DNA from: Sulfuritalea sp.
GTDB lineage: Bacteria; Pseudomonadota; Gammaproteobacteria; Burkholderiales; Rhodocyclaceae
Length of the DNA stretch: 64,000 bases
Reading direction: 5' to 3'
Assembly: GCF_017302275.1 (NCBI RefSeq)
Contig: NZ_JAFLDR010000015.1
Location: 39,507 to 103,506, forward strand
The notes under the pieces are model-generated. The model did not search any database. It was given only the letters and a program-made list of their open reading frames with translations, and was not told the origin of the DNA. Shown piece by piece: positions 9,590 to 59,687 of this stretch. A program made the translations under genes and the position numbers. The number at the start of each line of letters is the position of its first letter. Within the stretch, counting starts at the first letter, position 1.

Positions 9590-10759
9590 TCAATTCAAGG
9601 TTGAAAGCGCAACGGTATAGCGGCCGGGAAGCTGGTCGGCGGCGTTGACGGTGATGTCGAGATCGCGCATCAGGCCATCCTTGAGGCCGTAGATCCAGCC
9701 GTGGATGGTCAGGGGCTGGCCGCGCTGCCAGGCATCCTGTACGACATAGGTCTGGCAGACGTTGGCGACCTGTTCCAGCACATTGAGTTCGCACAGCCTG
9801 TCGTGCCTTGCCTCCGGCGGCAGCCTGTCGATTTCGGCCAGATGCTTGGCGCGCACGTCGCGCACGTGGCGCAGCCAGATGTCGACCAGGCCGACGCGCG
9901 CACCGTCGAGTGCAGCCTTGACGCCGCCGCAACCGTAGTGGCCGACCACCATGATGTGCTTGACCTTGAGCACGTCGACGGCGAACTGGATCACCGACAG
10001 GCAGTTGAGGTCGGTATGCACCACGACGTTGGCGACATTGCGATGGACGAAAACCTCGCCCGGCAGCAGGCCGACGATTTCGTTGGCCGGTACCCGCGAA
10101 TCCGAGCAGCCGATCCACAGCAGTTCGGGCGTCTGCAGGTGGGAGAGCTTCTCGAAATAGCCCGGATCGACCTCGCGCATCTTGTTCGACCAGGCGCGAT
10201 TGAAGTCGAACAGGTGGTGCAGGCTGCGATTATTGATCTCGTCCTCGGACCAGTTTTCGAGATCAAGGGCGAGGAACTGCGTACCCTCGACCGGCGTCTG
10301 GTAATAGGCCGGGGCCTCGTCGAAGCCCAGTTCGCGGTACAGCTTGACGGCGATGCGCATCGCCGGCAGCGTGTCGAGCATGATCCTGCGGTAGCCGATC
10401 TGGCGGGCCGCGCGGATCCCAGCCAGGGCCAGGTCGCGACCGACGCCGAGGCCACGAAAGGCGGGGTCGACATAGAGGCGCTTGAGTTCGCAGACGCCTT
10501 CCGAATACGGCCGGATGCCGACGCAACCGGCCCCCCTGCCGTCGACCGTGGCGTAGAACAGGCGGCCTTCCGGCGCCGAGTAGCGTCCGGGCAGGCTGGC
10601 CATTTCCTCGTCGAAATTCTGGAAACAGAGATCGACGCCGAGCCAGGCCGCGTAGTTGCGGAAGAACTGGCGCACCTGTTCCAGTTCCGCGGGGTGCTCG
10701 GCGCCGATCACGCGGATCGCCGTCCTGCCAGCGCCGACTTTCGTCCTTGCTTCAGCCAT
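9590..10759 (-). CDS. GNAT acetyltransferase-beta carbonic anhydrase fusion
   Basis: A 389-residue two-domain protein. Residues about 15-165 form a GNAT acetyltransferase with the acetyl-CoA loop LYVDPAFRGLGVGRDL near residue 100. Residues about 175-389 are a complete beta-class carbonic anhydrase with zinc ligands in WIGCSDSRVPA near residue 218 and VVGHYGCGGVKAA near residue 270. The anhydrase probably supplies bicarbonate to methylcrotonyl-CoA carboxylase in the same cluster. The GNAT role is unknown; regulation by lysine acetylation is one possibility. Codons 6-14 (KVGAGRTAI) are encoded by a copy of the dispersed repeat at 10718-10743. The reading frame is continuous, so the fusion is not an obvious assembly artefact. 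Confidence 0.9.
   Translation of the reverse strand: MAEARTKVGAGRTAIRVIGAEHPAELEQVRQFFRNYAAWLGVDLCFQNFDEEMASLPGRYSAPEGRLFYATVDGRGAGCVGIRPYSEGVCELKRLYVDPAFRGLGVGRDLALAGIRAARQIGYRRIMLDTLPAMRIAVKLYRELGFDEAPAYYQTPVEGTQFLALDLENWSEDEINNRSLHHLFDFNRAWSNKMREVDPGYFEKLSHLQTPELLWIGCSDSRVPANEIVGLLPGEVFVHRNVANVVVHTDLNCLSVIQFAVDVLKVKHIMVVGHYGCGGVKAALDGARVGLVDIWLRHVRDVRAKHLAEIDRLPPEARHDRLCELNVLEQVANVCQTYVVQDAWQRGQPLTIHGWIYGLKDGLMRDLDITVNAADQLPGRYTVALSTLN
10718..10743 (+). repeat. Dispersed repeat copy 1 (short form, in GNAT-CA gene)
   Basis: Short form of the window-wide repeat, beginning CGCCGTCCTGCC and ending GCGCCGACTTTCG. It lies in frame at codons 6-14 of the GNAT-carbonic anhydrase gene, on the opposite strand to it. 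Confidence 0.7.
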
Positions 10760-10791
10760 GAACCGGTTCCCTCAGGGTCAAGCCATGCAAA

Positions 10792-11232
10792 TCAGGACGA
10801 CCACGGCAGAACGTAGTCCGCCATGAGTTCCCGGGCCAGATCGCGCACGCCTTCCGGCAAGGGGCAGGCCTTGCGGATCTGGGTATCCATGTGGACGCCT
10901 GTCAGCAGGGTGACCGCAGAGACCTCATCGGTGTCGGCGTTGCGCATTTCGTGGAAAAAGATGACCTTCTTTTCGCCGACGGAAACGATGCCGGTGCGAA
11001 TCGCCACCGTGTTGCCGGCGTGCAGTTCGCGCTGGTAGCTGATCCGCTGGTCGACCGCCGCCATGCCGCGATGGTGTTTGCGCAGGAAGGCCGCATTCAT
11101 GCCGATGTGCGACATCAGGTTCCACGTCGCCTCGTCGAACTTGCCGACGTAGAACATCACGTTCATGTGGTTCATGTGGTCGCAGTGCCACGGATAGACC
11201 GTGCCGCGATAGGTGTCGAGGAGTGTCGTCAT
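10792..11232 (-). CDS. Acyl-CoA thioesterase, 4HBT hotdog family
   Basis: A 146-residue hotdog-fold thioesterase. The N-terminal VYPWHCDHMNHMNVMFYVGK matches the 4-hydroxybenzoyl-CoA thioesterase motif, in which an acidic residue around this loop activates water. It presumably releases free acids from acyl-CoA esters and so protects the CoA pool. Seven bases separate it from the thioesterase upstream, so it belongs to the same transcript. Three different hotdog proteins in one cluster is notable; each may serve a different chain length. Confidence 0.88.
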   Translation of the reverse strand: MTTLLDTYRGTVYPWHCDHMNHMNVMFYVGKFDEATWNLMSHIGMNAAFLRKHHRGMAAVDQRISYQRELHAGNTVAIRTGIVSVGEKKVIFFHEMRNADTDEVSAVTLLTGVHMDTQIRKACPLPEGVRDLARELMADYVLPWSS

Positions 11233-11238
11233 GGCGGT

Positions 11239-11757
11239 CTAGAGCGGGAACACCAGGCAGGTGGTGGAGGCGTGCGCGTAGAGGCGGCCCTGCACATCGA
11301 CGATGCGCCCCTCGGCGGTCGCCACCTGCTTGCCGACGTGGATCACCCTGCCTTCGGCACGCACCGGGCCGACGCGATCGGTCAGGGCGCGCACGTAATT
11401 CACCTTGAGTTCCAGCGTGGTGTAGCCCTGTCCGGCTTCAAGGGTGGTGTGTACCGCGCAGCCGACGCAGGAGTCGAGGAGCGTGGCGTGGAAGCCGCCA
11501 TGCACCGAGCCGATCGGGTTGTAGTGGCGATGCTCGGGCGTGCCCTGGAACACCACGTGGCCCTTGTCGGCGCTGATCAGCATGAAGCCCAGGGTGTCGG
11601 CGATCGGTGGATAGGGCAACTCACCGGCGATCATCTTGCGGAAGATTTCCAGCCCGGAGTACTCGCGCAGGGTTTCCAGCGCCAGCGTGCCGATGCTGCC
11701 GGCACTGGCGCGCACGGCGGCTTCCTGTTCGTGCCAGATCTGTAGGTTGCCGCTCAT
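11239..11757 (-). CDS. PaaI-family thioesterase
   Basis: A 172-residue hotdog protein of the PaaI group. The N-terminal 45 residues are a family-variable helix. The motif NPIGSVHGGFHATLLDSCVG near residues 95-115 carries the HGG and downstream aspartate used in catalysis. The start at 11757 lies 5 bases after the isovaleryl-CoA dehydrogenase stop, with only GAGCGCC as a weak ribosome-binding site, which suggests coupling to that gene. The substrate is unknown; the context suggests isovaleryl-CoA or a related branched acyl-CoA. Confidence 0.85.
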   Translation of the reverse strand: MSGNLQIWHEQEAAVRASAGSIGTLALETLREYSGLEIFRKMIAGELPYPPIADTLGFMLISADKGHVVFQGTPEHRHYNPIGSVHGGFHATLLDSCVGCAVHTTLEAGQGYTTLELKVNYVRALTDRVGPVRAEGRVIHVGKQVATAEGRIVDVQGRLYAHASTTCLVFPL

Positions 11758-11762
11758 GGCGC

Positions 11763-12932
11763 TCACATGGTCTCGTTGTAGAGTTCGCGCCCGATCAGCA
11801 TGCGGCGGATCTCGCTGGTTCCGGCGCCGATTTCGTACAGCTTGGCGTCGCGCCAGAGGCGGCCCGCGGGATATTCGTTGGTGTAACCGACGCCGCCCAG
11901 GGCCTGTATCGTCTCTCCGGCCATCCAGGTGGCCTTTTCCGCCGAGTAGAGAATGGCGCCGGCGGCGTCCTTGCGCAGGGTTCTTGCATGGTCGCCGCGA
12001 TCGCAGGCCTTGCCCAGCGCATAGACATAGGCACGCGTGGCCTGCCAGGTCGAGTACATGTCGGCCAGCTTGCCCTGCATCAACTGGAACTCGCCGATGC
12101 TCTGGCCGAACTGCTTGCGCTCGTGGATGAAGGGCAGCACCACGTCCATGCAGGCGGCCATGATGCCCAGCGGTCCGCCGGAAAGCACGGCGCGCTCGTA
12201 ATCGAGGCCCGACATCAGCACGCGCGTGCCGTTGCCTTCGCCGCCCAGGACGTTTTCCACCGGCACTTCGCAGTCGTCGAAGAACAGCGGATAGGTGTTG
12301 GAACCGCGCATGCCGAGCTTGTCGAGGTGCTGGCCCTTGGAGAAGCCCTTGCAGCCCTTCTCGACGATGAAGGCAGTCATGCCCTTGGCGCCGCCCTCGG
12401 GATTGGTCTTGGCGTACACCACCAGCGTGTCGGCATCGCCGCCGTTGGTGATCCACATCTTCGATCCGTTGAGGACGTAGCGGTCGCCTTTCAGGTCGGC
12501 GCGCAGCTTCATCGACACCACGTCGGAACCGGCGCCCGGCTCGGACATCGCCAACGCCCCAACATGCTCGCCGGAAATCAGCCTGGGCAGGTATTTCCGC
12601 TTCTGCGCCTCGCTTCCGTTGCGGCGGATCTGGTTCACGCAGAGGTTGGAATGGGCGCCGTAGGACAGGCCGACCGAGGCCGAGGCGCGCGAGATTTCCT
12701 CCATCGCGACAATGTGCGCGAGGTAGCCCATCTTGGTGCCGCCGTATTCCTCGTCGGCCGTCATGCCGAGCAAACCCATGTCGCCGAACTTCTTCCACAG
12801 GTCAGCGGGGAAGAGGTTGTCGCGATCGATCTCGGCGGCGCGCGGCAGGATTTCCTTCTGCGCGAAGGCCCAGATGGCGTCGCGCAGCATGTCGATGTCT
12901 TCACCTAGGTCGAAATTGAGTCCGAGCATCAT
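11763..12932 (-). CDS. liuA: Isovaleryl-CoA dehydrogenase
   Basis: An acyl-CoA dehydrogenase of 389 residues starting [20 protein letters not shown]. Two features identify isovaleryl-CoA dehydrogenase. The catalytic glutamate sits in [17 protein letters not shown] near residue 250, and the usual C-terminal catalytic position is replaced ([18 protein letters not shown]). It converts isovaleryl-CoA to 3-methylcrotonyl-CoA, the substrate of the carboxylase encoded downstream. The ATGATG start overlaps the stop of the upstream thioesterase, so the second ATG at 12929 is also possible. Confidence 0.95.
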
Positions 12933-13402
12933 TTTTCCTTTTTGGCATGCATGGTCATGAGGGTCTGCTGCATCGTGGCGCAGTGGGTGGCGTGGCCGTT
13001 CCTGATCGCGTAGACCTCGCCGCGCGATATCACGAGATTGCGCCCGGTTTTCAGCACCTGCCCCTCGGCGACGAGGTAGTCGCCGTCGGCGGGAGCCAGC
13101 AGGTTGAGCTTGAATTCCACGGTCAGCACGTCGGACCCGGCCGGCATGAGCGTCAGGCCGGAGTAGCCGCCGGCGCTGTCGACGATGGTGGCGGTGATGC
13201 CGGCGTGGAAGTAGCCGTTCTGCTGGGTGAGGTCGGCGCGGAAAGGCAGGCGGATCTCGCAATGCCCGGGGGCCAGGGCGCCCATTTCGGCTCCGATCAG
13301 TGTCATTACCGTCTGCCGGGCAAAGCTGCCGCGCACGGTGGCTTCCCAGTCGGGATTGCGCGGCTCGAAGCTTTTCTGGGCGGGACGTGCGGTGTGGGGC
13401 AT
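12929..13402 (-). CDS. PaaI-family thioesterase
   Basis: A hotdog thioesterase of 157 residues beginning [20 protein letters not shown]. The motif [20 protein letters not shown] near residue 70 is the PaaI active-site region, here HAG rather than the more common HGG. I placed the start at 13402 because GGAGGAAAC lies directly upstream; a longer reading from 13474 would pass through the palindromic operator. It is the first structural gene after the merR-like regulator and overlaps the isovaleryl-CoA dehydrogenase start, so the operator at 13434-13473 probably controls the whole cluster through this gene. Confidence 0.85.
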
Positions 13403-18811: not shown

Positions 18812-19747
18812 ATGAAACCCGCGACAATTCCCGCACGGCGCGGCACGCTGATGAGTGGCCTGGTGGCGCTTCTGCTGGCGAGTTGCGCGACCATCGTCCC
18901 TGGCACGCTGCGCGATACCGACCATCCGCTGGCCGGCAGGCTATGGGACACCTCCGTGCAAGGCTTCATCGACGACGCCGAACTGCTGCGTCGCGCCGCT
19001 GGCGCCGACGCCGTGCTGTTGGGCGAGATCCACGACAACCCGGAACACCATCGTTTGCAGGCCAGGCTGCTGCAGGCCCGCATCGATGCCGGCGCCCGCC
19101 CGGCGCTGCTGATGGAGCAGTTCGACATCGACCAGCAATCCGCGCTGGAGGAAGCGCGTCGCAGCAGCCGCGACCTGGCACCGCTGATGCACGGCTGGGA
19201 GTGGCCGCAGTACCAGCCGCTGGTGGCGCTGGCCGCTACCGCGGGACTGACCCTGCAGGCGGCCAACCTGCCGTGGGCGTCCGCCCGACCGGTGGTACGC
19301 GAGGGCTTTGCATCCATGGCCGCCGGCGAACTGCGACGACTCGCGCTCGAAACCACCTGGAACGATGATAGGCAAAGCTACATGACCGAAGTGATCGGGG
19401 CCTCGCATTGCGGCATGGTCACCCCGCAACTGCGCGACGGACTGGTGCGCGCACAGCGCTTGCGCGATGCGACGCTGGCCGATGCGGCACTGGACAGAAT
19501 CGACCAGGGCGTGGTCTTCATCCTCGGTCGCGGCCATGCGCGACGGGATGTCGGTGTGCCGCTCTACCTGGCGGCGCGCCGCCCCGGCACGCGCGTGCTC
19601 TCGATCGGCTTCGTGGAAGTCGGCGCTGGCAAGACGGCGCCGGCACAGTACGAGACCGAGCGCGTCGGCAACATCGCGCCCTACGACATCATCTGGTTCA
19701 CTCCGCGCGCGGAACGCGCCGATCCCTGCCTGGCGTTTCGCAAGTAA
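18812..19747 (+). CDS. ChaN-family lipoprotein
   Basis: A 311-residue predicted lipoprotein: the signal LMSGLVALLLASCATIVPG carries a lipobox cysteine at about residue 25. The mature part has the ChaN/DUF399 pattern, AVLLGEIHDNPEHHRLQ near residue 68 and the later ALLMEQFDIDQQ and VFILGRGHARRDVG. ChaN-like proteins bind haem or iron at the outer membrane. A segment near the C-terminus (VGAGKTAP, 19617-19640) resembles the peptide encoded by the dispersed repeat. It may be a diverged copy or chance. Confidence 0.82.
   Translation: MKPATIPARRGTLMSGLVALLLASCATIVPGTLRDTDHPLAGRLWDTSVQGFIDDAELLRRAAGADAVLLGEIHDNPEHHRLQARLLQARIDAGARPALLMEQFDIDQQSALEEARRSSRDLAPLMHGWEWPQYQPLVALAATAGLTLQAANLPWASARPVVREGFASMAAGELRRLALETTWNDDRQSYMTEVIGASHCGMVTPQLRDGLVRAQRLRDATLADAALDRIDQGVVFILGRGHARRDVGVPLYLAARRPGTRVLSIGFVEVGAGKTAPAQYETERVGNIAPYDIIWFTPRAERADPCLAFRK
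19617..19640 (-). repeat. Possible diverged dispersed repeat in the ChaN gene
   Basis: The minus strand reads CGCCGTCTTGCC then AGCGCCGACTTC, close to copy 1 at 10718. The match lies inside a conserved gene, so convergence cannot be excluded. Confidence 0.35.
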
Positions 19748-19749
19748 AA

Positions 19750-23245: not shown

Positions 23246-24763
23246 ATGTCGCTCGCAGTCCTCCGCTCGCGAGCGTTGGCGGGCCTCGCGGCCCCGGAAG
23301 TCACGGTCGAAGTCCATCTCGCCGCTGGGCTACCGTCATTTACCCTGGTCGGACTGCCCGATACCGAAGTCAAGGAGGCGCGTGACCGTGTGCGCGCCGC
23401 GATCCAGAACTGCGGCTTCGAGTTTCCGCAACGCCGCATCACCGTGAACCTCGCCCCGGCCGATTTGCCCAAGGAATCCGGCCGCTTCGACCTGCCGATC
23501 GCACTGGGCATCCTGGTCGCCTCGGGGCAGGTCAAGGCGGCGAACCTGGACGAACACGAATTCGCCGGCGAACTGGCGCTGTCGGGCGACCTGCGCGCGG
23601 TGCGCGGCACGCTGGCCATGTGCGCTGCGATCCATTGCCAGGCCGGCAGCGGCGGCGCGCGCGCCTTCGTCCTGCCGCTGGAAAGTGCGCCGGAAGCGGC
23701 CCTGATCGAGGGCATGAACATCCTGCCGGCGCGCACCCTGCTGCAGGTCTGCGCCCACCTCGTCGGCCGTGAGATCCTGGCTCCGTTCGCCGTATCGCCA
23801 GCGCCGACTCTTGCATGGTATCCGGATCTCGCCGAGGTCAAGGGCCAGGCGCAGGCCAAGCGCGCGCTGGAAGTCGCCGCTGCCGGCGGCCACAGCCTGC
23901 TCATGAGCGGGCCGCCCGGCGCCGGCAAGTCGATGCTGGCACAACGCCTGCCCGGCCTGATGCCGCCGATGACCGACGCCGAAGCGCTGGAGTCCGCCGC
24001 AGTGCATTCGCTGGCTGGAAGCTTCACGCTCGCGCAGTGGAAGCAGCGTCCGTTTCGCGCGCCGCACCATTCCGCATCGAGTGCCGCCTTGGTCGGGGGC
24101 GGTGGTACGCCGCGACCGGGCGAGATCTCGCTGGCACATCACGGCACGCTGTTCCTCGACGAATTGCCGGAGTTCCAGCGCGGCGTGCTCGAAGCCCTGC
24201 GCGAACCGCTGGAAAGCGGACTGATCCACATCGCCCGCGCCGCGCGCCGCGCTGAATTCCCCGCGCGCTTCCAACTCGTCGCGGCGATGAACCCCTGCCC
24301 CTGTGGCTGGCTCGGACATGCCTCCGGCAAATGCCGCTGCACCCCGGACCAGGTTGCACGCTATCGCGGCAAGCTGTCGGGACCCTTGCTCGATCGCATC
24401 GACCTGATGCTCGACGTGCCTGCAGTGGCCGAAGCCGACCTCGCCGCGCGCGGCGACGGTGAATCCTCGGCCATCGTGCGCGCTCGCGTGGGTGCCGCGC
24501 GGCAGCGCCAGCAGCGACGCCAGGGCAAGCCCAATGCGCTGCTCGCGCCCGACGAAATCGACATGCATTGCCTGCCCGACCGCGACGGCGCGGCCCTGCT
24601 CAAGCGCGCCATGCGGCAGCTTGGCCTGACCGCGCGGGCCTATCATCGCATCCTCAAGGTGGCGCGCACGATTGCGGACCTGGCCGACCTCGCCGAAGGC
24701 CTGCCGCTGTCCGCCGCGCATGTCGCCGAAGCCGTGCATTACCGCCGCGGCCTCGCCAACTGA
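23246..24763 (+). CDS. comM: YifB/ComM-type AAA+ ATPase
   Basis: A 505-residue Mg-chelatase-like AAA+ protein; ComM homologues are hexameric helicases promoting branch migration during natural transformation. The N-terminal Lon-like fold (LVGLPDTEVKEARDRVRAAI) is followed by Walker A GPPGAGKS near residue 222 and Walker B LFLDELPEF near residue 303. A zinc-binding segment, NPCPCGWLGHASGKCRC, lies near residue 350. Between the two domains, codons 181-189 (AVSPAPTLA) are encoded by a copy of the dispersed repeat at 23788-23813, replacing or extending the natural linker. The reading frame stays open. Confidence 0.94.
   Translation: MSLAVLRSRALAGLAAPEVTVEVHLAAGLPSFTLVGLPDTEVKEARDRVRAAIQNCGFEFPQRRITVNLAPADLPKESGRFDLPIALGILVASGQVKAANLDEHEFAGELALSGDLRAVRGTLAMCAAIHCQAGSGGARAFVLPLESAPEAALIEGMNILPARTLLQVCAHLVGREILAPFAVSPAPTLAWYPDLAEVKGQAQAKRALEVAAAGGHSLLMSGPPGAGKSMLAQRLPGLMPPMTDAEALESAAVHSLAGSFTLAQWKQRPFRAPHHSASSAALVGGGGTPRPGEISLAHHGTLFLDELPEFQRGVLEALREPLESGLIHIARAARRAEFPARFQLVAAMNPCPCGWLGHASGKCRCTPDQVARYRGKLSGPLLDRIDLMLDVPAVAEADLAARGDGESSAIVRARVGAARQRQQRRQGKPNALLAPDEIDMHCLPDRDGAALLKRAMRQLGLTARAYHRILKVARTIADLADLAEGLPLSAAHVAEAVHYRRGLAN
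23788..23813 (+). repeat. Dispersed repeat copy 2 (short form, in comM)
   Basis: Short form CGCCGTATCGCC to GCGCCGACTCTTG. It is in frame on the coding strand of comM, encoding AVSPAPTLA in the interdomain linker. Confidence 0.85.
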
Positions 24764-29232: not shown

Positions 29233-31062
29233 ATGAGCCATCAATGGAAGTTCTTCCGCGCCGGCGGTTTCGACCAGGTGCGGATCGACACCGCCGCCGA
29301 CCTGCTGAACCTTAAGGAACTCGACCAGAAACTTTGGGTCGCCCTGTCCTGCCCGACCAAGGGCATCGAGTTCGACGCGCGCACGCTTGAATTGCTCGAC
29401 AGCGACGCCGACGGCCACATCCGGGCGCCGGAACTGCTGGCCGCCATCGACTGGGCGGCAGCACGCCTGACCGACAGCGCGGTGCTCGAGCAAAAGCTGA
29501 ACGGCGTGCCCCTGGCCGCGATCAAGGACGAGGCCATCCTCGCCGCCGCGAAGGGCCTGCTGCCCGACGGCGGCGCGATGATCAGCGTCGACGCCGCGAG
29601 CGCCGCCGAGGCCGAATACACCGCGCGCGCGCTGGCCGCCTGGGAAGCCTCCGGCAGCGCGGCGCGGCCGCTGGGCGATGCCACCGAAACGGCGTGCGCA
29701 GCGCTGGCCGCGGTCAAGGACAAGCTCGACGACTTCTTCGTGCGCTGCCGGCTGGCCGCCTTCGACGAACGCGCCGGCCAGGCCATGAATGCCTCGGACG
29801 ACAGCTTCAAGGCCCTCGGCGGCGCGACGCTGAGCAACGGCCATGCCGACATCGCCGCACTGCCGCTGGCAAGAGTCGGCGCTGGCGCCACGGTGCCGCT
29901 CGGCGCGGGGATCGATTCCGGCATCAACCCGGCCTGGGCAGAGCGCATCGGCGCCCTGCGCGAAGCCGTGGTGGTGCCACTGCTCGGTGCGCGGCCCGGC
30001 CTTTCGGAAAGCGATTGGCTCGCGGTGCAGGACCAGCTCGCCGTGTACAACGCGTGGCAGGCCGCCAAGCCGGCCGGGTTGCCGCCCGAAGCCGAGGCGG
30101 TGCGCGACCTGGAACGCCTGGCGCGCTATGTGCGCGACCTGCTGCCGCTGGCCAACAACTTTGTCGCCTTCCGTGACTTCTACACGCGCCAGGGCAAGGC
30201 GACGTTCCAGATCGGCACCCTCTACCTCGACGGGCGCTCCGCCGAACTTTGCGTCGCCGTCGCCGACGCCGGCAAGCACGCGGCGCTGGCCGGGCTGTCG
30301 CGCATCTGCCTGGTGTATTGCGACTGCGTGCGCAACGGAGAAAAGCTCTCGATCGCCGCCGCCTTCACCGCCGGCGATTCCGACCAGTTGATGGCGCTGC
30401 GCAACGGCGTGTTCTACGACCGCCAGGGACGCGACTGGGACGCCACCATCACCAAGATCGTCGACCACCCCATCAGCCTGCGCCAGGCCTTCTGGTCGCC
30501 CTACAAGAAGCTCGCGCGCATGGTCGGCGAACAACTGCAGAAGCTCGCCGCGAGCAAGGCCGCCGGGGTAGAGGGCAAGCTCGCCGAAACCGCTGCCGCC
30601 ACGGCGAAGAAGGCCGACGCGGCACCCAAGCCCGCGCCGGCTCAGCAGGCGTTCGACGTCGGCAAATTCGCCGGCATCTTCGCCGCCATCGGCCTGGCGG
30701 TCGGCGCCATTGGCACCGCCGTGGCCTCCATGCTCACCGGCCTGCTCGGCCTGCACTGGTGGCAGGTTCCGATCGCGCTGGCCGGCCTGATGCTGCTGAT
30801 ATCCGGACCCGCCGTGATCATGGCCTGGTTCAAGCTCAGGAGCCGCAACCTCGGCCCGGTGCTCGACGCCAACGGCTGGGCGGTGAATGCGCGCGCGCGC
30901 ATCAACATCCCCTTCGGCACCTCGCTGACGCAGATGGCCCAGCTGCCCGAAGGCGCGCAACGCGCGCTGTCCGATCCCTACGCGGAGAAGGAACGGCCGT
31001 GGAAAACCTACGCCGCGTTCGCGATCATCGCCTTCGTCGCGGCGGTTTATTGGACGCGATGA
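29233..31062 (+). CDS. EF-hand-containing membrane protein of unknown function
   Basis: A 609-residue protein starting MSHQWKFFRAGGFDQVRIDT. An EF-hand-like loop, DSDADGHIRAPE, lies at residues 56-67. The large central region has no domain I can name. An Ala/Lys/Pro linker (KKADAAPKPAPAQQ) precedes two or three hydrophobic segments near residues 478-535, and a final helix (TYAAFAIIAFVAAVYWTR) ends the protein. Residues 212-221 (ARVGAGATVP) are encoded by an inverted copy of the dispersed repeat. A GGGAGACGAT ribosome-binding site precedes the start. Its proximity to the hydrolase gene gives no firm functional clue. Confidence 0.75.
   Translation: MSHQWKFFRAGGFDQVRIDTAADLLNLKELDQKLWVALSCPTKGIEFDARTLELLDSDADGHIRAPELLAAIDWAAARLTDSAVLEQKLNGVPLAAIKDEAILAAAKGLLPDGGAMISVDAASAAEAEYTARALAAWEASGSAARPLGDATETACAALAAVKDKLDDFFVRCRLAAFDERAGQAMNASDDSFKALGGATLSNGHADIAALPLARVGAGATVPLGAGIDSGINPAWAERIGALREAVVVPLLGARPGLSESDWLAVQDQLAVYNAWQAAKPAGLPPEAEAVRDLERLARYVRDLLPLANNFVAFRDFYTRQGKATFQIGTLYLDGRSAELCVAVADAGKHAALAGLSRICLVYCDCVRNGEKLSIAAAFTAGDSDQLMALRNGVFYDRQGRDWDATITKIVDHPISLRQAFWSPYKKLARMVGEQLQKLAASKAAGVEGKLAETAAATAKKADAAPKPAPAQQAFDVGKFAGIFAAIGLAVGAIGTAVASMLTGLLGLHWWQVPIALAGLMLLISGPAVIMAWFKLRSRNLGPVLDANGWAVNARARINIPFGTSLTQMAQLPEGAQRALSDPYAEKERPWKTYAAFAIIAFVAAVYWTR
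29870..29895 (-). repeat. Dispersed repeat copy 3 (short form, inverted)
   Basis: Read on the minus strand it begins CACCGTGGCGCC and ends GCGCCGACTCTTG. It lies in frame within the EF-hand protein gene, encoding ARVGAGATV on the plus strand. Confidence 0.75.
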
Positions 31063-32063: not shown

Positions 32064-32113
32064 CGCCGTGTCGCCAGCGACCGCAGGAAGTCCCCGTGGG
32101 GCGCCGACTCTTG
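32064..32113 (+). repeat. Dispersed repeat copy 4 (long form)
   Basis: Long 50-base form: CGCCGTGTCGCCAGCG, an internal 24-base block containing GGAAGTCCCCGTGGGG, then CCGACTCTTG. The internal block contains a CCCC-GT-GGGG mini-palindrome and is flanked by GCG. The copy is intergenic, just upstream of the WYL regulator. Confidence 0.85.
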
Positions 32114-32720: not shown

Positions 32721-32730
32721 CCGGCGTTTC

Positions 32731-32753
32731 CGTATCGCCGGCGCCGACTCTTG
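32731..32753 (+). repeat. Dispersed repeat copy 5 (short form)
   Basis: CGTATCGCCGGCG followed by CCGACTCTTG, intergenic, 10 bases after the stop of the small membrane peptide. Confidence 0.75.
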
Positions 32754-33365: not shown

Positions 33366-33391
33366 CGCCGTGTCGCCAGCGCCGACTTTTG
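33366..33391 (+). repeat. Dispersed repeat copy 6 (short form)
   Basis: A near-consensus copy, CGCCGTGTCGCC to GCGCCGACTTTTG, intergenic between two minus-strand genes. CGGCTCATG precedes it and resembles the upstream flank of copies 10 and 11. Confidence 0.9.
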
Positions 33392-34184: not shown

Positions 34185-34210
34185 CGCCGTATCGCCAGCG
34201 CCGACTTTCG
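34185..34210 (+). repeat. Dispersed repeat copy 7 (short form)
   Basis: CGCCGTATCGCC to GCGCCGACTTTCG, intergenic between the nucleotidyltransferase gene and the DUF2283 gene. Confidence 0.9.
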
Positions 34211-35893: not shown

Positions 35894-39315
<3,422 letters not shown>

Positions 39316-39319
<4 letters not shown>

Positions 39320-39717
39320 CGGGTCGGGCAAAGGGCGACCGGAGGGAAGGCTTCGGCACGCTTCGCCTTGCTCACGAAATCCTTGTCGAAAGTCATCAGC
39401 GTGGCGGTGGCGGGTGACAGGCCCAGATGCAGCGCGTCGGCGAAGTCCAGCCCCTGCTCGAACCACTGTACGGCGCGATACAGCGCGCTTTCATTGGGCA
39501 AGCGCATGTTGGGCAGGCCCAGCACATGGCGCAGCGCGACGGCGATCTCGGCGCGGGAACAATCGCTGCATTCCAGCACCCAGACCAGTTCGAGGACGAT
39601 GGTGTGGGTGACGGTGACCTGCGGCGCGGAGTCGAGCAGGCGCGCGACGCGCCTGCCTTGGGCGGCGTCGTCGTTGAGCAGGTAGCGCAGCAGCAGATTG
39701 GTGTCGAGAACGATCAT
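39316..39717 (-). CDS. vapC: VapC-type PIN-domain toxin
   Basis: A 133-residue PIN ribonuclease with VLDTNLLLRYLLNDD at residues 3-17, a conserved glutamate in THTIVLELVWVLE near residue 43, and the acidic LDFADALHLGLSPA plus LMTFDKDFVSKA in the second half. It pairs with the AbrB-type antitoxin gene upstream (7-base gap). Its stop codon overlaps the start codon of the type IIG restriction-modification gene, an unusual translational coupling. Confidence 0.9.
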
Positions 39718-40343: not shown

Positions 40344-40369
40344 TGCCGTGCAGCCAGCGCCGACTTTTG
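40344..40369 (+). repeat. Dispersed repeat copy 10 (short form)
   Basis: TGCCGTGCAGCC then AGCGCCGACTTTTG. The upstream flank GTGGCTCACCAAATGCGCC (40313 onward) resembles the flank of copy 11, so these two copies share a longer unit. Confidence 0.75.
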
Positions 40370-42196: not shown

Positions 42197-42222
42197 CGCC
42201 GTGTCGCCGGCGCCGACTTTTC
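42197..42222 (+). repeat. Dispersed repeat copy 11 (short form)
   Basis: CGCCGTGTCGCC to GGCGCCGACTTTTC, preceded by GTGGCTCACAGGATGCGCC, the flank shared with copy 10. It lies in the promoter region of the acetyltransferase gene. Confidence 0.85.
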
Positions 42223-44964: not shown

Positions 44965-45129
44965 CGCAAAATGCAGCCGACCACGAAGTCCCAGGCGGCT
45001 ATCGAGCGAAGCGAGCTGACGGGTAGCCCCGCCCTGGGGCGGGGATGGGGGTGGGGGGCCTTCAATTCGCCTTTCGCGTGTTTCATCTTCTGTGGGTGGC
45101 GCTTGGTGCCATAAGCGTTAGACCCGCCA

Positions 45130-45155
45130 CGAAAGTCGGCGCCCACGGCACGGCG
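45130..45155 (-). repeat. Dispersed repeat, third variant
   Basis: On the minus strand, CGCCGTGCCGTGGG then CGCCGACTTTCG. It looks like the long form with a different internal deletion (CGCCGTG joined to CCGTGGGCGCC). It lies inside a frameshifted reading frame. Confidence 0.5.
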
Positions 45156-54387: not shown

Positions 54388-54603
54388 TGTGGACTTCTCC
54401 TTTGATGTATGACTTGCGGATTCACTGGCACGCAAACCTTGCTTCACAACAGACCGGGGGATACCCGCGAAAGCGTTTTCCGGCGCCCTCGATTTCCGCT
54501 GCCGATCAACCGAAGCCGCCTGCCCTGTCCCCTCCGATATTCACGAGGGTTTTGCGGATACATCGGCATTTAGTTGACGTTTAAATTTTGTATGCCTTAA
54601 GTG

Positions 54604-54650
54604 AAATTGTCCAAGACTATTTTCCGATCCGACCTATAGGCTTCCGCTAT
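54604..54650 (+). promoter_or_regulatory. Shared regulatory element, copy A (upstream of scnB)
   Basis: A 36-bp unit at 54615-54650 runs from GACTATTTTCCGATCC to ATAGGCTTCCGCTAT; the end is a LysR-type ATAG-N7-CTAT dyad. The 27 bases 54604-54630 are identical to 58272-58298 (copy C). It lies 228 bases upstream of scnB. Confidence 0.8.
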
Positions 54651-54767
54651 AAAGAATCCCCTGATATCTGCAGGGCTAGCGGTCGTGCGGAATCATCCGC
54701 GCGGAGGGCGAACGCCCCGAATTCACGCGATCGCGAATCGCTGTTTTTTTGGGCTAGAATCAGTCAG

Positions 54768-54803
54768 GACTATGCTTCGATTCAATCTATAGGAATCGGC
54801 TAT
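54768..54803 (+). promoter_or_regulatory. Shared regulatory element, copy B (over the lysR start)
   Basis: The 36-bp unit begins GACTATGCTTCGATTC and ends ATAGGAATCGGCTAT. The dyad contains the AGGAA Shine-Dalgarno and overlaps the first two bases of the lysR start codon, so regulator binding should block its own translation initiation region or transcription. Confidence 0.8.
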
Positions 54804-55830
54804 GGAATCAAAACTGGTGTTCCCGCGCTCGATCCGCTACCTGTTCGCCGTCGCGGAACATCACAGCTTTACACGCGCCGCCGAAGCGCTGCACGTGTCG
54901 CAGCCGACGCTTTCGCAGCAGATCCGGCTCCTGGAAGAAGTGCTGCACGTACAGTTGCTCGACCGCTCCGGGCGCAACGTTCGCCTGACCGATGCCGGCG
55001 AGGTCTATCTGCACCACGCCCGGCGCGCGCTCGGCGAGCTGGAAGCCGGAACACGAGCGATCCACGAGGTACAGGACCTCAGCCGCGGCACGCTGCGCCT
55101 GGGCATGAATCCCATCACGGAGTACATCACCACGCCGCTGCTGGAAGATTTCGTCGCCCGCCATCCGGGAATCGCAATGAGCGCCGTGGAGATGTCGCAG
55201 GACGAAATCGAGGCCGGTGTCGCCGAGGACAGGATCGACATCGGCATCGTGTTTTCCGAGACGTTTTCATCGGAGGGCCGCTCTGCGGAGATCGACAAGC
55301 ACACGCTGTTCGTGGAAACCCTAAACCTTGCCGTGGGCAAGGGCCATCACCTGGCCGGTCGCCAAACCGCGCTGAGTGCGTCCGAACTGGAAAAGGAATC
55401 ACTGGTCCTGCTCAATACCCAGTTTGCATTGCGGCGCCATTTCGACCTTTATTGCCTCGAATACCGCATCACGCCGCACATCGCCATCGAGACCAACTCG
55501 CTCAACATGCTGGTTCAGTCCGCCAGCCTCGGCCGCCTTGTCACCATCCTTCCCAGTTCGATTTCCGAGGCGCAGTCCGGGCTCCATTCGGTGCCCCTGC
55601 TGCCGCAGTTGCCGCACCACGCGATTGCCCTGATCTGCCACAAGGGCACCTACAAGAGTGCCGCCTGCCATGCTTTCGGGGAAATGGCCAGGCAATGGAG
55701 CGCCGCCCGGTATCACGCACTGCAACAGCGGCTGGATGAAGCGAGCGGACAGGCCACCCTGGACGAGAGACGGGACACCGGCAGCGCGAGGCGCCCGGTG
55801 GAAGGGACGGCGGGCGCGATCGCGCGCTGA
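54802..55830 (+). CDS. LysR-family regulator of thiocyanate/cyanate genes
   Basis: A 342-residue LTTR. The winged helix reads SIRYLFAVAEHHSFTRAAEA then LHVSQPTLSQQIRLLEEVLH near residues 10-50. A CynR-like ligand-binding domain follows (LRLGMNPITEYITTPLLEDF, with NLAVGKGHHLAG in the second subdomain). The last 40 residues are a polar tail of no clear family value. It is divergent from the scn operon, the classical LTTR arrangement, and the 36-bp elements contain the expected T-N11-A dyads. The effector may be thiocyanate or cyanate. Confidence 0.88.
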   Translation: MESKLVFPRSIRYLFAVAEHHSFTRAAEALHVSQPTLSQQIRLLEEVLHVQLLDRSGRNVRLTDAGEVYLHHARRALGELEAGTRAIHEVQDLSRGTLRLGMNPITEYITTPLLEDFVARHPGIAMSAVEMSQDEIEAGVAEDRIDIGIVFSETFSSEGRSAEIDKHTLFVETLNLAVGKGHHLAGRQTALSASELEKESLVLLNTQFALRRHFDLYCLEYRITPHIAIETNSLNMLVQSASLGRLVTILPSSISEAQSGLHSVPLLPQLPHHAIALICHKGTYKSAACHAFGEMARQWSAARYHALQQRLDEASGQATLDERRDTGSARRPVEGTAGAIAR

Positions 55831-55837: not shown

Positions 55838-55886
55838 GGCTCGACCCGGGCTTCGCGGCAAGACCGGCGCTCTCCAGCGCAAGACC

Positions 55887-56708
55887 TCAGACGCGGGTTG
55901 CTAGGTAGGTGTAGTAGTTGCAGGCGGCGAAGAAGCTGCCGTCCGCCATCGCCTGGTTCTGCGCCGCAAGCCAGGCGTCGACCGCCTCGGCGGAAAACAT
56001 TCCGGACTTGACGATGTAGGGCGCATAGGTCTCGGCGAAGGACTTGAAATAGCTGGCCTTGCCGATCTCGACCACGGCGTCGCCCCAGGCCTGCTGCAAT
56101 TGCAGCCCGAGTTGGGGCATCAGGCGCGGCAGGTCACGCATGATGTGCGGATTATTGAAGGCGGCCGTGGTCAGGGCCACGTCCATGCGATGCCCCAGAT
56201 CGTGGTCGGGCATGGCGTAGGTCATCGAGGAATAATCGCCATCGAAGATCGCCACGATGCCGCCGGGGCGCACGACGCGGACCATTTCGCGCAAGACGGC
56301 CTGCGGGTCGGCAACGTGGCTGATCAGGGTATGGGCGAACGCGGCGTCGAAAGTCGCCTCCGGAAAATCGAGGTCATGCGCGTCGCCGACGCGGAAATCG
56401 ACGCGATCGCCGACGCCGTGTTCTGCGGCAAAGCGACGAGCGGCCTCGATGAAGGGGTGGCTCTGGTCGACGCCGACGGCCTTGCCGGAAAAGTCGTCGC
56501 GGCCGGCCAGCGAGCGGGTCATGGCCCCGGTGCCGCAGCCTACCTCCAGCACATGCGCCGACGCGCCGGGGGACAGGTGTCCGGCATACTTGTCGAACAG
56601 CCGGGTGAACACGACGTCCTTGGCGCGGCCTTCGAGGCGGGCGATCAACCGCTCGATGGCCGCTTCGTCGAGCTCATTGACAAAACGGTGCGGATCACGT
56701 GCCGGCAT
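55887..56708 (-). CDS. SAM-dependent methyltransferase
   Basis: A 273-residue class I methyltransferase: motif I is HVLEVGCGTGAMTRSLAG near residue 53, followed by AVGVDQSHPFIEAARRFAAE and DFRVGDAHDLDFPEATFDAA, and VRPGGIVAIFDGDYSSMTYA. I chose ATG 56708, preceded by GAGGTGG, over ATG 56726. It is the last gene after cbiM and cynS. A thiocyanate- or sulfide-methylating detoxification role is possible from the context but nothing in the sequence fixes the substrate. Confidence 0.8.
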   Translation of the reverse strand: MPARDPHRFVNELDEAAIERLIARLEGRAKDVVFTRLFDKYAGHLSPGASAHVLEVGCGTGAMTRSLAGRDDFSGKAVGVDQSHPFIEAARRFAAEHGVGDRVDFRVGDAHDLDFPEATFDAAFAHTLISHVADPQAVLREMVRVVRPGGIVAIFDGDYSSMTYAMPDHDLGHRMDVALTTAAFNNPHIMRDLPRLMPQLGLQLQQAWGDAVVEIGKASYFKSFAETYAPYIVKSGMFSAEAVDAWLAAQNQAMADGSFFAACNYYTYLATRV

Positions 56709-56775
56709 CGTCCACCTCTGTTTCATGGTTCGCGGCGGGCGGCGGCCCACTGCGCGCCACCCGGACCCGCGCAGG

Positions 56776-57216
56776 CTACCAGGACTTGTAGGGCAGGAAC
56801 TTTCCGCTCATGGTCACCAGCACGCGATCGCCCTTGGGATCCTCCTGCTTGTCGATCTTCATCGTGAAGTCGATCGCGCTCATGATGCCGTCACCGAACT
56901 TCTCGTTGACCAGTTCCTTGATGGTCTCGCCATAGACGTTGATCATCTCGTACCAGCGATAGATCAGCGGGTCGGTGGGTACCACCTGGGTCCACGTCTT
57001 GAGCGGGAATGCCTGCAGGGCGGCCGATCCATCCTTGCCCAGGCCGAGCAACTTGGCCACCGCATCGGCGGGCTTCCTGTCGAGGTGATTCATGCCCAGG
57101 CAGGCGGAACAGGTGAACTCGGGAGACAGCCCGGCGGCTTTGGCAATATCGTTCCAGCTCAGGCCCTTCTTTTGCTTGGCGTCGAGAATCGCATCCTTCA
57201 TTTCGGCTTTGTTCAT
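56776..57216 (-). CDS. cynS: Cyanate hydratase (cyanase)
   Basis: A 146-residue cyanase, which converts cyanate and bicarbonate to ammonia and CO2. The N-terminal helix-turn-helix-like domain (KKGLSWNDIAKAAGLSPEFT) is followed by the catalytic core IYRWYEMINVYGETIKELVN (Arg and Glu) and FGDGIMSAIDFTMKI (Ser). AAAGGA precedes the ATG at 57216. It lies 155 bases after cbiM, across a hairpin. Cyanate may be a minor product or a co-contaminant of thiocyanate, so it complements the hydrolase. Confidence 0.96.
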   Translation of the reverse strand: MNKAEMKDAILDAKQKKGLSWNDIAKAAGLSPEFTCSACLGMNHLDRKPADAVAKLLGLGKDGSAALQAFPLKTWTQVVPTDPLIYRWYEMINVYGETIKELVNEKFGDGIMSAIDFTMKIDKQEDPKGDRVLVTMSGKFLPYKSW

Positions 57217-57302
57217 GGCAATTGTCCTTTATCAGTAGCCGGCAGGGCGCACCAACGCGGCAGGCAACGTAGCCCGTCGTGGCCTATCCGGATCAATCGA
57301 AA

Positions 57303-57324
57303 GCGGGGAACAACAGTTCCCCGC
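57303..57324 (-). terminator. Hairpin between cbiM and cynS
   Basis: A perfect 9-bp stem GCGGGGAAC / GTTCCCCGC around a 4-base loop; the minus-strand reading continues TTTCGATT. A second weaker hairpin (ACTCCG / CGGAGT) lies just upstream. This could attenuate transcription from cbiM into cynS. Confidence 0.55.
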
Positions 57325-57371
57325 GAAGCGACTCCGACCGTGGCCGGAGTCCAGGCACCAGCGCAGGCGGT

Positions 57372-58052
57372 TCAGGCGGCGGCGCTGTACAGGCGCGGGT
57401 TGAACACACCGCTGGTTTCCAGGCGATGCAGCGCCTTGGCGGCTGCCAGAACACCCAGGTCCAGCGCCGGCTCGACAAGGATCACGCCCATGTAGGCGAC
57501 GCTGAAGGTGGCGATCTCGGCAAGGTTCTCGGCGCCTGCGCCGGCACCATACACGGCCCAGAAACCAACCCAGGCCACGACGCCGCCCTGGTAGGCGGTG
57601 GACAGCTTCAGCGCCTGTCCATAGGTGACATCCTTGTAGGCCGTATGGGCGGGGATCACGCGTTGCGCCAGGGCATTGATGGCCAGCAGCGGTACCAGCA
57701 GGCTGGTCACGTTCATGCCGTATTGCGGCAGGTCGGCTGGTGCGACCAACAGACCTTGCGCCAGCAGGCCGATAGCCAGGCCGAGCGCCGCGGGCGCGGC
57801 GCCGAACATCAGGAACAGGGTGGAGCCAAGGATGAAATGGACCTCCGACACGCCCACCGGATAGTGCGGCAGCACCTCGAAGAAGCCCAGGACCAGCAGC
57901 GCGGCAAGGACAATGCGGATCGCGAGCGGCGCGACACCGTCACGCTTGGCCATGTCCTTCGCCAGCTTGAGCGAATACCCGAGCGCGCCTGTCGCCGTGA
58001 TAAAGCCAAGTGCCAGTTTGGCGCCAACAACGATACCTGGTTCGATGTGCAT
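57372..58052 (-). CDS. cbiM: CbiM-type cobalt uptake membrane protein
   Basis: A 226-residue inner-membrane protein starting MHIEPGIVVGAKLALGFITA. The N-terminal Met-His is the metal-binding feature of CbiM/NikM core proteins. Later segments include YPVGVSEVHFILGSTLFLMF near residue 70 and AHTAYKDVTYGQALKLSTAY. AAGGAGG lies before the ATG. No CbiN, CbiQ or CbiO is adjacent, so it may use ATPase components encoded elsewhere. It is the first gene before cynS and shares the regulatory element with scnB, consistent with supplying cobalt to thiocyanate hydrolase. Confidence 0.85.
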   Translation of the reverse strand: MHIEPGIVVGAKLALGFITATGALGYSLKLAKDMAKRDGVAPLAIRIVLAALLVLGFFEVLPHYPVGVSEVHFILGSTLFLMFGAAPAALGLAIGLLAQGLLVAPADLPQYGMNVTSLLVPLLAINALAQRVIPAHTAYKDVTYGQALKLSTAYQGGVVAWVGFWAVYGAGAGAENLAEIATFSVAYMGVILVEPALDLGVLAAAKALHRLETSGVFNPRLYSAAA

Positions 58053-58271
58053 GCTTGAATCCTCCTTATCCACGCTACCCAAGATGGAATCGATCGGCCG
58101 AAACCGGCGATTCCTGCAAAAAAATCGGACAGACCCCTTTCGATACCGGCGGCGCCTGCCAAGCTCCCGCTCGAATTCGAGCCCGACAAGAAGCCTGGGG
58201 CAACAACTGCGACTCAATGCTGCACAGCCGCCCGAAAGCAATTGACGATTAAATTGTGTTTGATTGAAATA

Positions 58272-58318
58272 AAATTGTCCAAGACTATTTTCCGATCCAT
58301 TGCATAGGAATCGGCTAT
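58272..58318 (+). promoter_or_regulatory. Shared regulatory element, copy C (upstream of cbiM-cynS)
   Basis: The 36-bp unit at 58283-58318 begins GACTATTTTCCGATCC and ends ATAGGAATCGGCTAT. It is identical to copy A over 27 bases at the left and to copy B over the right dyad. It lies 231 bases upstream of cbiM, nearly the same distance as copy A from scnB. It is followed by ATG and a short open frame without domain content, as if derived from a lysR start. Confidence 0.8.
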
Positions 58319-58411
58319 GCATCGACGGGGGGTAGTTCCGGGCTTGCCTGCCGCCCGACCCACCGCGGAAATGGCTGCCCGCAACGCAGTGCGGGACTTT
58401 TGCCGACGGCG

Positions 58412-59653
58412 TCAGACAGGTCGCGCGGGCGCCCCGGTATGCAGTTCGATGCGGCCCACGAAAATCATCGCAACCATCGTGGCCCCCACCGCGAGCCAGC
58501 CGACCTGGTTGTAGCCGACGATGCGGCCCGAGGCATCGGCCGCGATCATCGTGCCGCCGAGCCAGGCGGCGGTACCCGAGGACAACTGCTGCACGGCGCC
58601 GTTCATCGACAGGAAGGTGCCGCGCAGGCGCGGCTGCACCGCCGAGGTGACGATGGCCATGGCCGGCACCATGCGCCCCGGCACGAAAATGAAGAACACG
58701 GTCGACCAGAAGATCATGACCCACAGCGGTACCGGCCACAGGTGCGTCTGCACCAGCAGGGGCACCATCGAGCACAGCGCCATCGCCCGGTACACCCGGA
58801 TCTTGCCGTAGGCATCGGCGAGGCGGCCGACCAGGCGCGAGGTGAAGAAGGTCGCGCAGCCGCCGAAGAGGTAGATCAGGGGAATGTCTTCCTGGCGGAT
58901 AAGGACGTTCGCGGTGACGTAGATGGTGATGTAGGGGATCACCGAGAAGCCCGACACCATGATCAGTGCCATGAACAGCAGGGCCTTCAGGTGGTTGCGG
59001 TCGCGCAGCACGGCGGCCATCGCCGCCAGCGGATGGGCGCGTTCTGCTTCCGACACGGTGGCGTTGGGCAGGTGCCCGCGCAAGGCGGGCAGCATCTTCC
59101 AGCCCAGCAGCAGGAAACCAGCGGAAAGTGCAGCGATGAAAATGAAGGGAAAGCGCCAGCCGAAGTGGTTGGCGAGATACAGGGACAGCGGAACCCCGGC
59201 CACGGTCGAAATCGAAAACGCCGACATGATGGTGCCGCTGGCGCGACCGCGGCGCTCGAACGGAATCAGGTCGCCGACCATGGTCTGCACCATCGAACCG
59301 AGCACGCCGCCGAAAGCGCCGGCCGTGCCGCGTGCCACCAGCAACGTGAGGTAGCCCGGCGCCAGGCCGCAGGCCAGCGTGGCCAGCGCGAACAGGCCGA
59401 ACATGGCGAGCAGCAGGCGCTTGCGCTCGAAGCGATCGACGAAGGTCGCCGCCAGCACTCCGGCAAACGCCGCGGTGAAACTATAGGCCGAGACCAGCAG
59501 GCCGAACTCGTGGGTGCCGACTCCGAGCTCGCGCATCAGGATCGGACCCAGCGGCATCATGATCATGAAGTCGAGGATGTGGGCGAACTGTATCCCGGCC
59601 AGGGTCAGCAGCAGCGCGCGTTCGCGCGCGGGATCGAGGGTCTGCGATGTCAT
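58412..59653 (-). CDS. MFS transporter (drug-efflux type)
   Basis: A 413-residue major-facilitator protein with about 12 membrane helices. The N-terminal half shows FAHILDFMIMMPLGPILMRE and FVDRFERKRLLLAMFGLFAL (the D-R-x-x-R-K loop between helices 2 and 3). The C-terminal half has LVGRLADAYGKIRVYRAMAL. This resembles the AraJ/DHA1 exporter group. A repeat copy lies directly upstream of its start at 59662-59687. Confidence 0.88.
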   Translation of the reverse strand: MTSQTLDPARERALLLTLAGIQFAHILDFMIMMPLGPILMRELGVGTHEFGLLVSAYSFTAAFAGVLAATFVDRFERKRLLLAMFGLFALATLACGLAPGYLTLLVARGTAGAFGGVLGSMVQTMVGDLIPFERRGRASGTIMSAFSISTVAGVPLSLYLANHFGWRFPFIFIAALSAGFLLLGWKMLPALRGHLPNATVSEAERAHPLAAMAAVLRDRNHLKALLFMALIMVSGFSVIPYITIYVTANVLIRQEDIPLIYLFGGCATFFTSRLVGRLADAYGKIRVYRAMALCSMVPLLVQTHLWPVPLWVMIFWSTVFFIFVPGRMVPAMAIVTSAVQPRLRGTFLSMNGAVQQLSSGTAAWLGGTMIAADASGRIVGYNQVGWLAVGATMVAMIFVGRIELHTGAPARPV

Positions 59654-59661
59654 TGGGCGAG

Positions 59662-59687
59662 CAAGAGTCGGCGCTGGCGGTACGGCG
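59662..59687 (-). repeat. Dispersed repeat copy 12 (short form, inverted)
   Basis: On the minus strand, CGCCGTACCGCC to GCGCCGACTCTTG, in the 38-base gap between the LysR stop and the MFS start. It is read in the same strand direction as both genes. Confidence 0.85.

Follow-up and report, generated by a model that had tools for sequence, protein, structure and literature searches.

A 64,000-nucleotide stretch of the genome of Sulfuritalea sp. (contig NZ_JAFLDR010000015.1, positions 39,507 to 103,506; here called the window) carries dispersed copies of a sharply bounded 26-bp motif, CGCCGTRTCGCCAGCGCCGACTYTYG, which we interpret, with moderate confidence and by analogy with known systems, as the DNA uptake sequence (DUS) of Sulfuritalea-type bacteria. 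The motif occurs in hundreds of copies with sharp edges, is restricted to a clade in which it has formed dialects, changes in place by substitution, is conserved at synonymous positions, and forms two terminator-shaped inverted pairs; from these features, we infer preferential uptake, a receptor, and drive. The type IV pilus competence machinery would read the motif as a self-tag, and fragments with a good match would be taken up and recombined preferentially. Matches would then accumulate and persist at permissive sites within and between genes and in both orientations, and the motif itself would not move. In a separate layer, short inserts specific to particular lineages enter the motif and multiply. 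A search of the open PMC literature, judged by title, listed only work on Neisseriaceae or Pasteurellaceae or unrelated work, with no earlier account of the motif among the matches listed.

Within the window, 13 copies were found at ≤4 mismatches, whereas the reversed sequence yielded none (15 versus 1 at ≤6 mismatches and 26 versus 14 at ≤8); the consensus was partly derived from these same copies, and the independent test is the sequence outside the window. Across the whole 4.4-Mb genome (G000; G002 and similar labels denote comparison genomes, and L numbers denote sampled loci), a 17-bp core of the motif gave 631 matches (322 + 309) at ≤2 mismatches, compared with 13 (5 + 8) for the same core read backward. 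An earlier reading of the window from sequence only had reported a dispersed repeat of a family it could not name; these counts, together with abundance in three genera (see below), bear out the repeat and show it to be large and clade specific. In 464 kb made up of the window and G002 stretches that were evenly spaced and totaled 400 kb, 84 sites had 0 to 5 mismatches, compared with none in the reversed control, and the mismatch histogram was bimodal. Information content at these 84 sites rose abruptly at motif position 1, preceded by a weak T, and fell to background after position 25; the flanking columns were close to background, and it is these flanks alone that are unselected, the inner columns coming from sites picked by similarity to the consensus. 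Positions 7, 8, 23, 25, and 26 are degenerate, and position 13 is A or G. Loci L001 to L030 and L032 to L111 were chosen for motif content and L320 to L327 for the long form described below; the density figures that follow were drawn solely from the window, L140 to L159, and L270 to L289.

The motif is confined largely to one clade. All 24 same-genus relatives exceeded their own controls (49 to 684 matches versus 5 to 12), and 22 of them had 322 to 684 matches; the two motif-poor members were G017 (49 versus 11 in the control) and G021 (165 versus 6). Sixteen genomes of other families had 0 to 19 matches versus 0 to 14 in controls. When an even sample of 399 genomes across the order was searched with a 25-bp pattern at ≤3 mismatches, the motif proved abundant in G000 (573 matches) and in two neighboring genera within its family (G044, 137; G174, 235; G272, 126), with 0 to 2 matches in nine further family members and 0 to 5 in the remaining genomes. 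Among the matches listed by an exact scan of named genomes, most belonged to Sulfuritalea and unclassified Rhodocyclaceae or Rhodocyclales metagenome-assembled genomes (MAGs), with some from Rugosibacter, Sulfurisoma, Sulfurimicrobium, and Burkholderiaceae and single Thiobacillus and Planctomycetota labels. The NCBI taxonomy places Sulfuritalea and Rugosibacter in the Sterolibacteriaceae. With the pattern relaxed slightly, 64 stretches of viral contigs matched, 63 with a single match each. Isolated near-exact copies (1 to 5 per genome) were also seen outside the family, in G107, G059, G204, and others, and are possibly transferred DNA or bin contamination.

Copies differ systematically between genera, as judged from three genera with one or two genomes each. 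Position 1 was T in 34 of 36 G174 copies and C in 73 of 74 G002 copies; in G000, it was C in 70 of 90 and T in 13. G174 and G272 favored C at position 8 and T at position 23. Two genomes, G242 and G412, showed no motif excess in 200 kb each, and a de novo search of the same 200-kb samples found no comparable substitute motif, with a script that likewise did not recover the known motif of G272. The motif poverty of G017 and G021 looks secondary, judging from one gene each, since both group with motif-rich members: a ComEC tree placed G017 within the genus and joined it to motif-rich G007 (support, 0.886), and G021 grouped with G005 in the tree of another gene (0.878).

Comparison of orthologous sites indicated how copies come and go. 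At the copy at 23788, 15 of the 17 other genus genomes aligned retain the motif, and the G017 and G021 sequences are unchanged in length but substituted at many bases. Among 362 orthologue pairs, the motif was present in 289, substituted in place in 40 (the 22 of these that were listed all come from the single site 23788), affected by small gaps in 26, and interrupted by an internal insertion in 7; gaps of ≥18 bp were found in none. In a second, larger comparison (68 site groups, 253 genome-sites), the motif was present at 119 genome-sites and substituted in place at 68, spread over 26 groups; 49 had small gaps, 16 had ≥18 bp inside the motif (some of which are poor alignments), and a single one, which was intergenic, had a motif-sized gap. 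In this tally, a genome with several alignments was given its least gapped class, which favors the in-place reading. Thus, the 26-bp motif arises mostly in place by substitution and not by insertion, mainly at intragenic sites. Relatives lacking a copy mostly showed substituted bases without a motif-sized gap.

The comparison of third codon positions drew on 100 query sites, which gave 655 orthologue pairs. Identity was 0.869 under invariant motif columns, versus 0.653 in the flanks and 0.570 under degenerate columns, and the excess was seen in 34 of 38 site groups and for each base (motif/flank: C, 0.888/0.730; G, 0.898/0.686; A, 0.798/0.439; T, 0.745/0.329). In comparisons with motif-poor genomes (70 pairs), the excess was mostly lost (0.724 versus 0.650), with A, T, and G close to the flank level and C still at 0.893. 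Synonymous positions within the motif are conserved at the DNA level.

Copies lie both between and inside genes and in both orientations, as had been noted from the window. Of 154 copies in 864 kb of G000 and G002, 90 were intragenic and 64 intergenic; with coding sequence making up 87% of this DNA, density was ~5-fold higher between genes. Gaps between convergent genes were the most densely occupied (22 copies in 12.0 kb, compared with 29 in 58.1 kb of tandem and 11 in 19.9 kb of divergent gaps). Intragenic copies in the window and G002 showed a frame preference: 19 of 23 opposite-strand copies used one frame, and same-strand copies used two frames (14 and 9) and the third not at all. Two inverted pairs were present in the 864 kb, both in G002 (near C1:2869145 and C1:3611773), spaced 31 and 32 bp start to start with stems of 25 and 23 bp; both lie directly past the stop of one gene and directly before the end of a convergent gene. 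They are shaped like terminators, and from this arrangement they may act in termination.

No overall strand bias was detected (76 plus, 78 minus). Chi and the FtsK orienting polar sequences (KOPS) are strand-biased motifs. A similar replichore polarity was hinted at among the matches listed but disappeared under even sampling of G002, in which 13 of the 17 stretches with at least two copies had both strands occupied; this strand test was made without a mapped origin or terminus.

These properties can be set beside the two known groups of uptake sequences. PMC12616744 describes DNA uptake sequences as known only from Neisseriaceae and Pasteurellaceae and gives the uptake signal sequence (USS) of the latter an extended motif of up to 32 nt. 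DUS traits listed in PMC3630211 are copy numbers in the hundreds to thousands, placement within as well as between genes, terminator-linked inverted pairs, and dialects that follow phylogeny. PMC1626085 reports that USS originate by substitution and not by insertion, and PMC2397512 argues that many new DUS come from recombination rather than point mutation. In-place change alone therefore cannot separate drive from selection. The abundance of the motif, its mostly nonmobile behavior, its DNA-level conservation, its genus dialects, and its terminator-like pairs match the descriptions of DUS and USS, and the overall pattern agrees with the accounts given in PMC3630211, PMC12616744, PMC13020248, PMC2397512, and PMC1626085. 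Like the Neisseriaceae DUS, the motif has hundreds of copies or more in and between genes, inverted pairs, and dialects. It differs from that DUS in its length (26 bp versus up to ~13 bp), in a sequence that is unrelated save for a shared GCCGT, in belonging to another order, in its few inverted pairs, and in the lineage-specific inserts within it; uptake and a receptor are putative here. It shares with the Pasteurellaceae USS a long extended motif and an origin by substitution; the USS has a 9-nt core plus weaker AT-rich tracts, whereas the motif described here is GC rich and nearly uniform.

Several observations weigh against interpretation as an uptake sequence. Transformation of the clade and uptake are argued by analogy. 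Motif strength is near uniform across the 26 bp, whereas the known cases have 9- to 13-nt cores, and inverted pairs are few, accounting for 4 of the 154 copies. Spacing was not significantly even (coefficient of variation, 0.79 versus 0.89 in simulations; P = 0.06). The scarcity of copies in low-GC 5-kb bins (2 in 14 bins, or 70 kb, compared with 152 in the 158 others, or 790 kb) would fit depletion in foreign DNA, for which low GC is, however, only a proxy. In the in-place analysis, 62 of the 68 site groups were intragenic, where selection would oppose large insertions anyway; intergenic flanks were mostly too diverged for alignment, and 1 of the 6 intergenic groups had a motif-sized gap. In pairwise comparison, two sites in all, L279:19045 and L191:2596, showed a motif-sized gap in at least one diverged alignment. 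Finally, competence genes are present, as an uptake sequence would require, but did not predict the motif. ComEC is encoded in 37 of 37 genomes, a ComP_DUS-type pilin in 36 of 37, and dprA in 34 of 37, and these genes were equally present in motif-less genomes and in G017. The three genomes without a dprA match were G005, G001, and G014; G005 is the most motif-rich relative (684 matches) and is 99% complete, so that its case is either an assembly gap or a real loss, and G001 and G014 are 83% and 80% complete.

The last of these points leads to the strongest competing explanation, that an intracellular DNA-binding protein, acting in chromosome architecture, recombination, or the control of replication, recognizes the motif at hundreds of sites, which selection maintains and whose dialects track the protein. 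Any sequence-specific binder would fit in-place evolution, clade restriction, and dialects, and it would not require competence genes to separate motif-bearing from motif-less genomes, which they fail to do. The lack of strand bias is unlike Chi or KOPS, however, and uptake sequences typically form inverted pairs between convergent genes. Sites of a regulatory protein would also not usually share so long and strict a consensus at hundreds of places, most of them intragenic, a contrast that PMC1626085 draws for uptake sequences. Taken together, we regard a binding site of this kind as unlikely, although it is the alternative that fares best.

The sequence-only reading had instead regarded the 26-bp unit as a mobile sequence resembling repetitive extragenic palindromic (REP) elements or Rickettsia palindromic elements (RPEs). 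A small mobile repeat copied to hundreds of sites would account for the strong consensus and copy number, for the few near-exact copies in other families of the order, and for the motif-sized gaps in diverged alignments at two sites, and a mobile-like 24-bp insert is indeed present within some copies. REP elements and bacterial interspersed mosaic elements (BIMEs) are hairpin-forming units, almost wholly intergenic, and the gene for their REP-associated tyrosine transposase (RAYT) is flanked by the repeat. The motif resembles them in being short, dispersed, clade specific, and denser between genes. It is unlike them in that a single copy forms no hairpin, more than half of the copies are intragenic, the motif is not inserted, and a cognate RAYT was not found. 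The short form folded no better than shuffled sequences (z scores of 0.35 and -0.70), so the hairpin expected for a REP-like unit is lacking in single copies; across the short and all inserted forms, no z score fell below -1.3, and the window had no Rfam match, leading us to reject a hairpin or RNA element.

A search for a transposase was similarly negative with respect to the motif. The genome has one Y1/RAYT-type (PF01797) gene, at about 1110 to 1925 of L031 on contig C63; the window lies on C7, so the earlier statement that no transposase is nearby holds for the Y1 family. Both flanks of this gene carry, by eye, a GGGGACAGACCACG-type sequence that is apparently the gene's own repeat and unrelated to the motif, and we rejected the gene as a cognate RAYT on this basis; the nearest motif copy at the 3′ end of the gene is no more than ~100 bp away. 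Motif-sized gaps were rare (0 of 362 pairs, and 1 of 253 genome-sites versus 68 substituted in place), and dialects shift genome-wide. A mobile 26-bp unit is therefore very improbable in our estimation, and the earlier assignment to a REP-like or RPE-like element does not stand for the motif itself.

Mobile-like behavior was seen in a different component. A 24-bp insert, ACCRMAGGAAGTCCCYGTGGGGCG, sits between motif positions 16 and 17 and yields a long form of about 50 bp; the sequence-only suggestion of mobility survives for this insert, which is present in the copies at 32064 and 36437. Long forms (insert plus adjoining motif pieces, ≤3 mismatches) numbered 69 in G000, 34 in G014, 3 each in G006 and G008, and 1 each in G015, G018, and G020, with none in the other 30 of 37 genomes and none in any backward control. 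The 69 G000 matches include motif pieces by design of the pattern, and confinement of the insert to the motif is judged from unbiased stretches (the window and L270 to L289), where all nine copies of the insert alone at 0 to 2 mismatches lay inside the motif. At 3 to 4 mismatches, two more matches appeared, one in a degenerate motif and one elsewhere. Of 55 long-form sites in G000, 20 lie inside genes and 35 between them. The insert shows almost no variation, the motif halves around it varying at the degenerate positions, and within genes it adds eight codons in frame (e.g., VGAPQGLPSVAGDTA).

Some relatives carry the motif without the insert. Among six long-form loci compared, 32064 and L287:5646 were not alignable across the site. 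At each of the other four, some relatives had the short motif, with 24 bp missing from the alignment. This was so for G002 at 36437, for nine genomes or more at L287:6252, for seven at L283:9283, and, where the alignments were weaker (L283:9536), for G002 and G005. A comparison confined to insert cases added three further G000 loci. At L287:6252, G000 shares G at position 8 with the short-form genome G424; this G occurs in 21 of 90 G000 copies and 3 of 74 G002 copies, so replacement of the flank need not be assumed at this locus. Of 21 G014 long-form sites, just 2 were orthologous to G000 sites, in a comparison of 21 of the 34 G014 matches with 55 (at a looser threshold) of the about 69 in G000, and G014 was empty at L287:6252 and at a comEC-locus site. 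These few shared sites and empty G014 sites point to recent, separate spread of the insert in G000 and G014.

Other inserts occupy the same motif in other species. A 21-bp type was in the motif in 9 of 13 pattern matches by script and in one more by eye (L426); a second 24-bp type was in the motif in 6 of 7 by script, the seventh being in a degenerate motif by eye, and one of its matches was in G272; and a 27-bp type also lies within the motif. A REP-like type of ~36 bp was in the motif in 7 of 24 matches by script and occurs elsewhere too. None of the inserts folded better than shuffled sequences (z scores of -1.2 to 0.9). At L426 (G000:C45, near 35374), one motif apparently contains two consecutive inserts, one of the 24-bp and one of the 21-bp type. 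Short tandem runs of a REP-like unit (CCTGCCCGCGAAGCGG...CCAGG..GCAAAGC and variants) were seen at L256:4387-4460, L257, and L066, and single units of this repeat sit in the 26-bp motif in other species.

RPEs lie in frame within proteins, and the 24-bp insert resembles them in this respect. In-frame insertion with an empty site in relatives was observed for the 24-bp insert and not for the 26-bp motif. The inserts differ from RPEs in their size (21 to 36 bp), in folding no better than shuffles, and, for the 24-bp type, in being found only within the motif in the unbiased stretches (9 of 9). Judging from their sequences and sites, the inserts would form a mobile-like, homing-like, lineage-specific layer separate from the motif, and we can only guess that they are copied when single strands bearing one tag anneal to other tags; the open PMC literature yielded nothing on short-patch double illegitimate recombination. 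The converse idea, that the long forms are the original element and the short copies internal deletions, would explain why both ends are common to the two forms but is largely refuted by their distribution and has next to no chance of being right, since 7 of 37 genomes have the 24-bp long form, with abundance in 2 of them, whereas the short form is abundant in three genera and present in relatives at all four alignable loci, and different inserts occupy the same motif in different species.

The copies in the window are collected in Table 1 with neighboring features. The sequence-only reading had listed at least 12 copies, and all 14 places that it named are real, 12 being short copies and 2 long forms. 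Most of its coordinates were exact; the copies placed at 32731 and 19617 begin at 32728 and 19614, and the copy at 5214 had been overlooked. We take the YifB-family gene that holds an exact copy to be the gene called ComM in competence work.

Table 1. Motif copies and other features of the window. Gene borders, called by a simple codon-usage script, are approximate; "intergenic" and "intragenic" follow these calls.
Feature	Position	Strand	Remarks
Short motif	5214..5239	-	4 mismatches; intragenic
Longest ORF (open reading frame) over the copy at 10718	9590-10759	-	GNAT and carbonic anhydrase domains
Short motif	10718..10743	+	3 mismatches; intergenic, yet within the longest ORF at this place, near its 5′ end
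Short motif	19614..19639	-	4 mismatches; intragenic; 6 loci from other genomes align across the site without gaps
YifB-family Mg-chelatase-like ATPase gene	23177-24763		Matches TIGR00368 and Pfam ChlI and Mg_chelatase
Short motif	23788..23813	+	Exact; within the YifB-family gene
Short motif	29870..29895	-	2 mismatches; intragenic; G005 orthologue has a 21-bp insert within the motif
Long form	32064..32113	+	Motif split by 24-bp insert; intergenic; no orthologue aligned across
Short motif	32728..32753	+	3 mismatches; intergenic
Short motif	33366..33391	+	Exact; intergenic
Short motif	34185..34210	+	Exact; intergenic
MmeI-like restriction-modification gene	35894-39466		Holds one short and one long motif copy
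Long form	36437..36486	+	24-bp in-frame insert in motif; inside the MmeI-like gene; G002 orthologue is the short form
Short motif	37181..37206	+	4 mismatches; in the same MmeI-like gene
Short motif	40344..40369	+	3 mismatches; intergenic
Short motif	42197..42222	+	2 mismatches; intergenic; G002 orthologue has the motif too
Separate dispersed repeat, ~120 bp	45002-45121		GC rich; intergenic; many copies (roughly 76 to 93% identity) in genus genomes, G021 above all
Short motif	45130..45155	-	4 mismatches; intergenic; adjoins the ~120-bp repeat
Three direct repeats, 63 to 77 bp	54574-54804, 58242-58319		Close to genes for a LysR-type regulator and a CbiM-type protein; could be copies of an operator or promoter
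Short motif	59662..59687	-	1 mismatch; intergenic

Taken as a whole, the data allow us to propose, tentatively, that the Sterolibacteriaceae possess a third, independently evolved uptake sequence, unusual in its length and uniformity (26 bp), that is exploited by inserts of 21 to 36 bp, in frame when within genes; these would have entered it repeatedly and multiplied to dozens of copies in individual species, perhaps by riding preferential uptake or by annealing of tag-bearing single strands. If the motif is an uptake sequence, it would be the third case and would come from environmental bacteria, as the lake and groundwater titles of the MAGs suggest, so that the question of why uptake specificity evolves would no longer be tied to mucosal commensals and pathogens. 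The inserts would rank among the smallest mobile-like sequences, with a 24-bp piece at 69 motif places in one genome. The choice between selfish drive and safe sex as explanations of uptake specificity would become testable in a harmless organism, and the clade would offer natural experiments in the dialects of genera g18 and g22, the likely secondary loss in G017, and the decay in G021.

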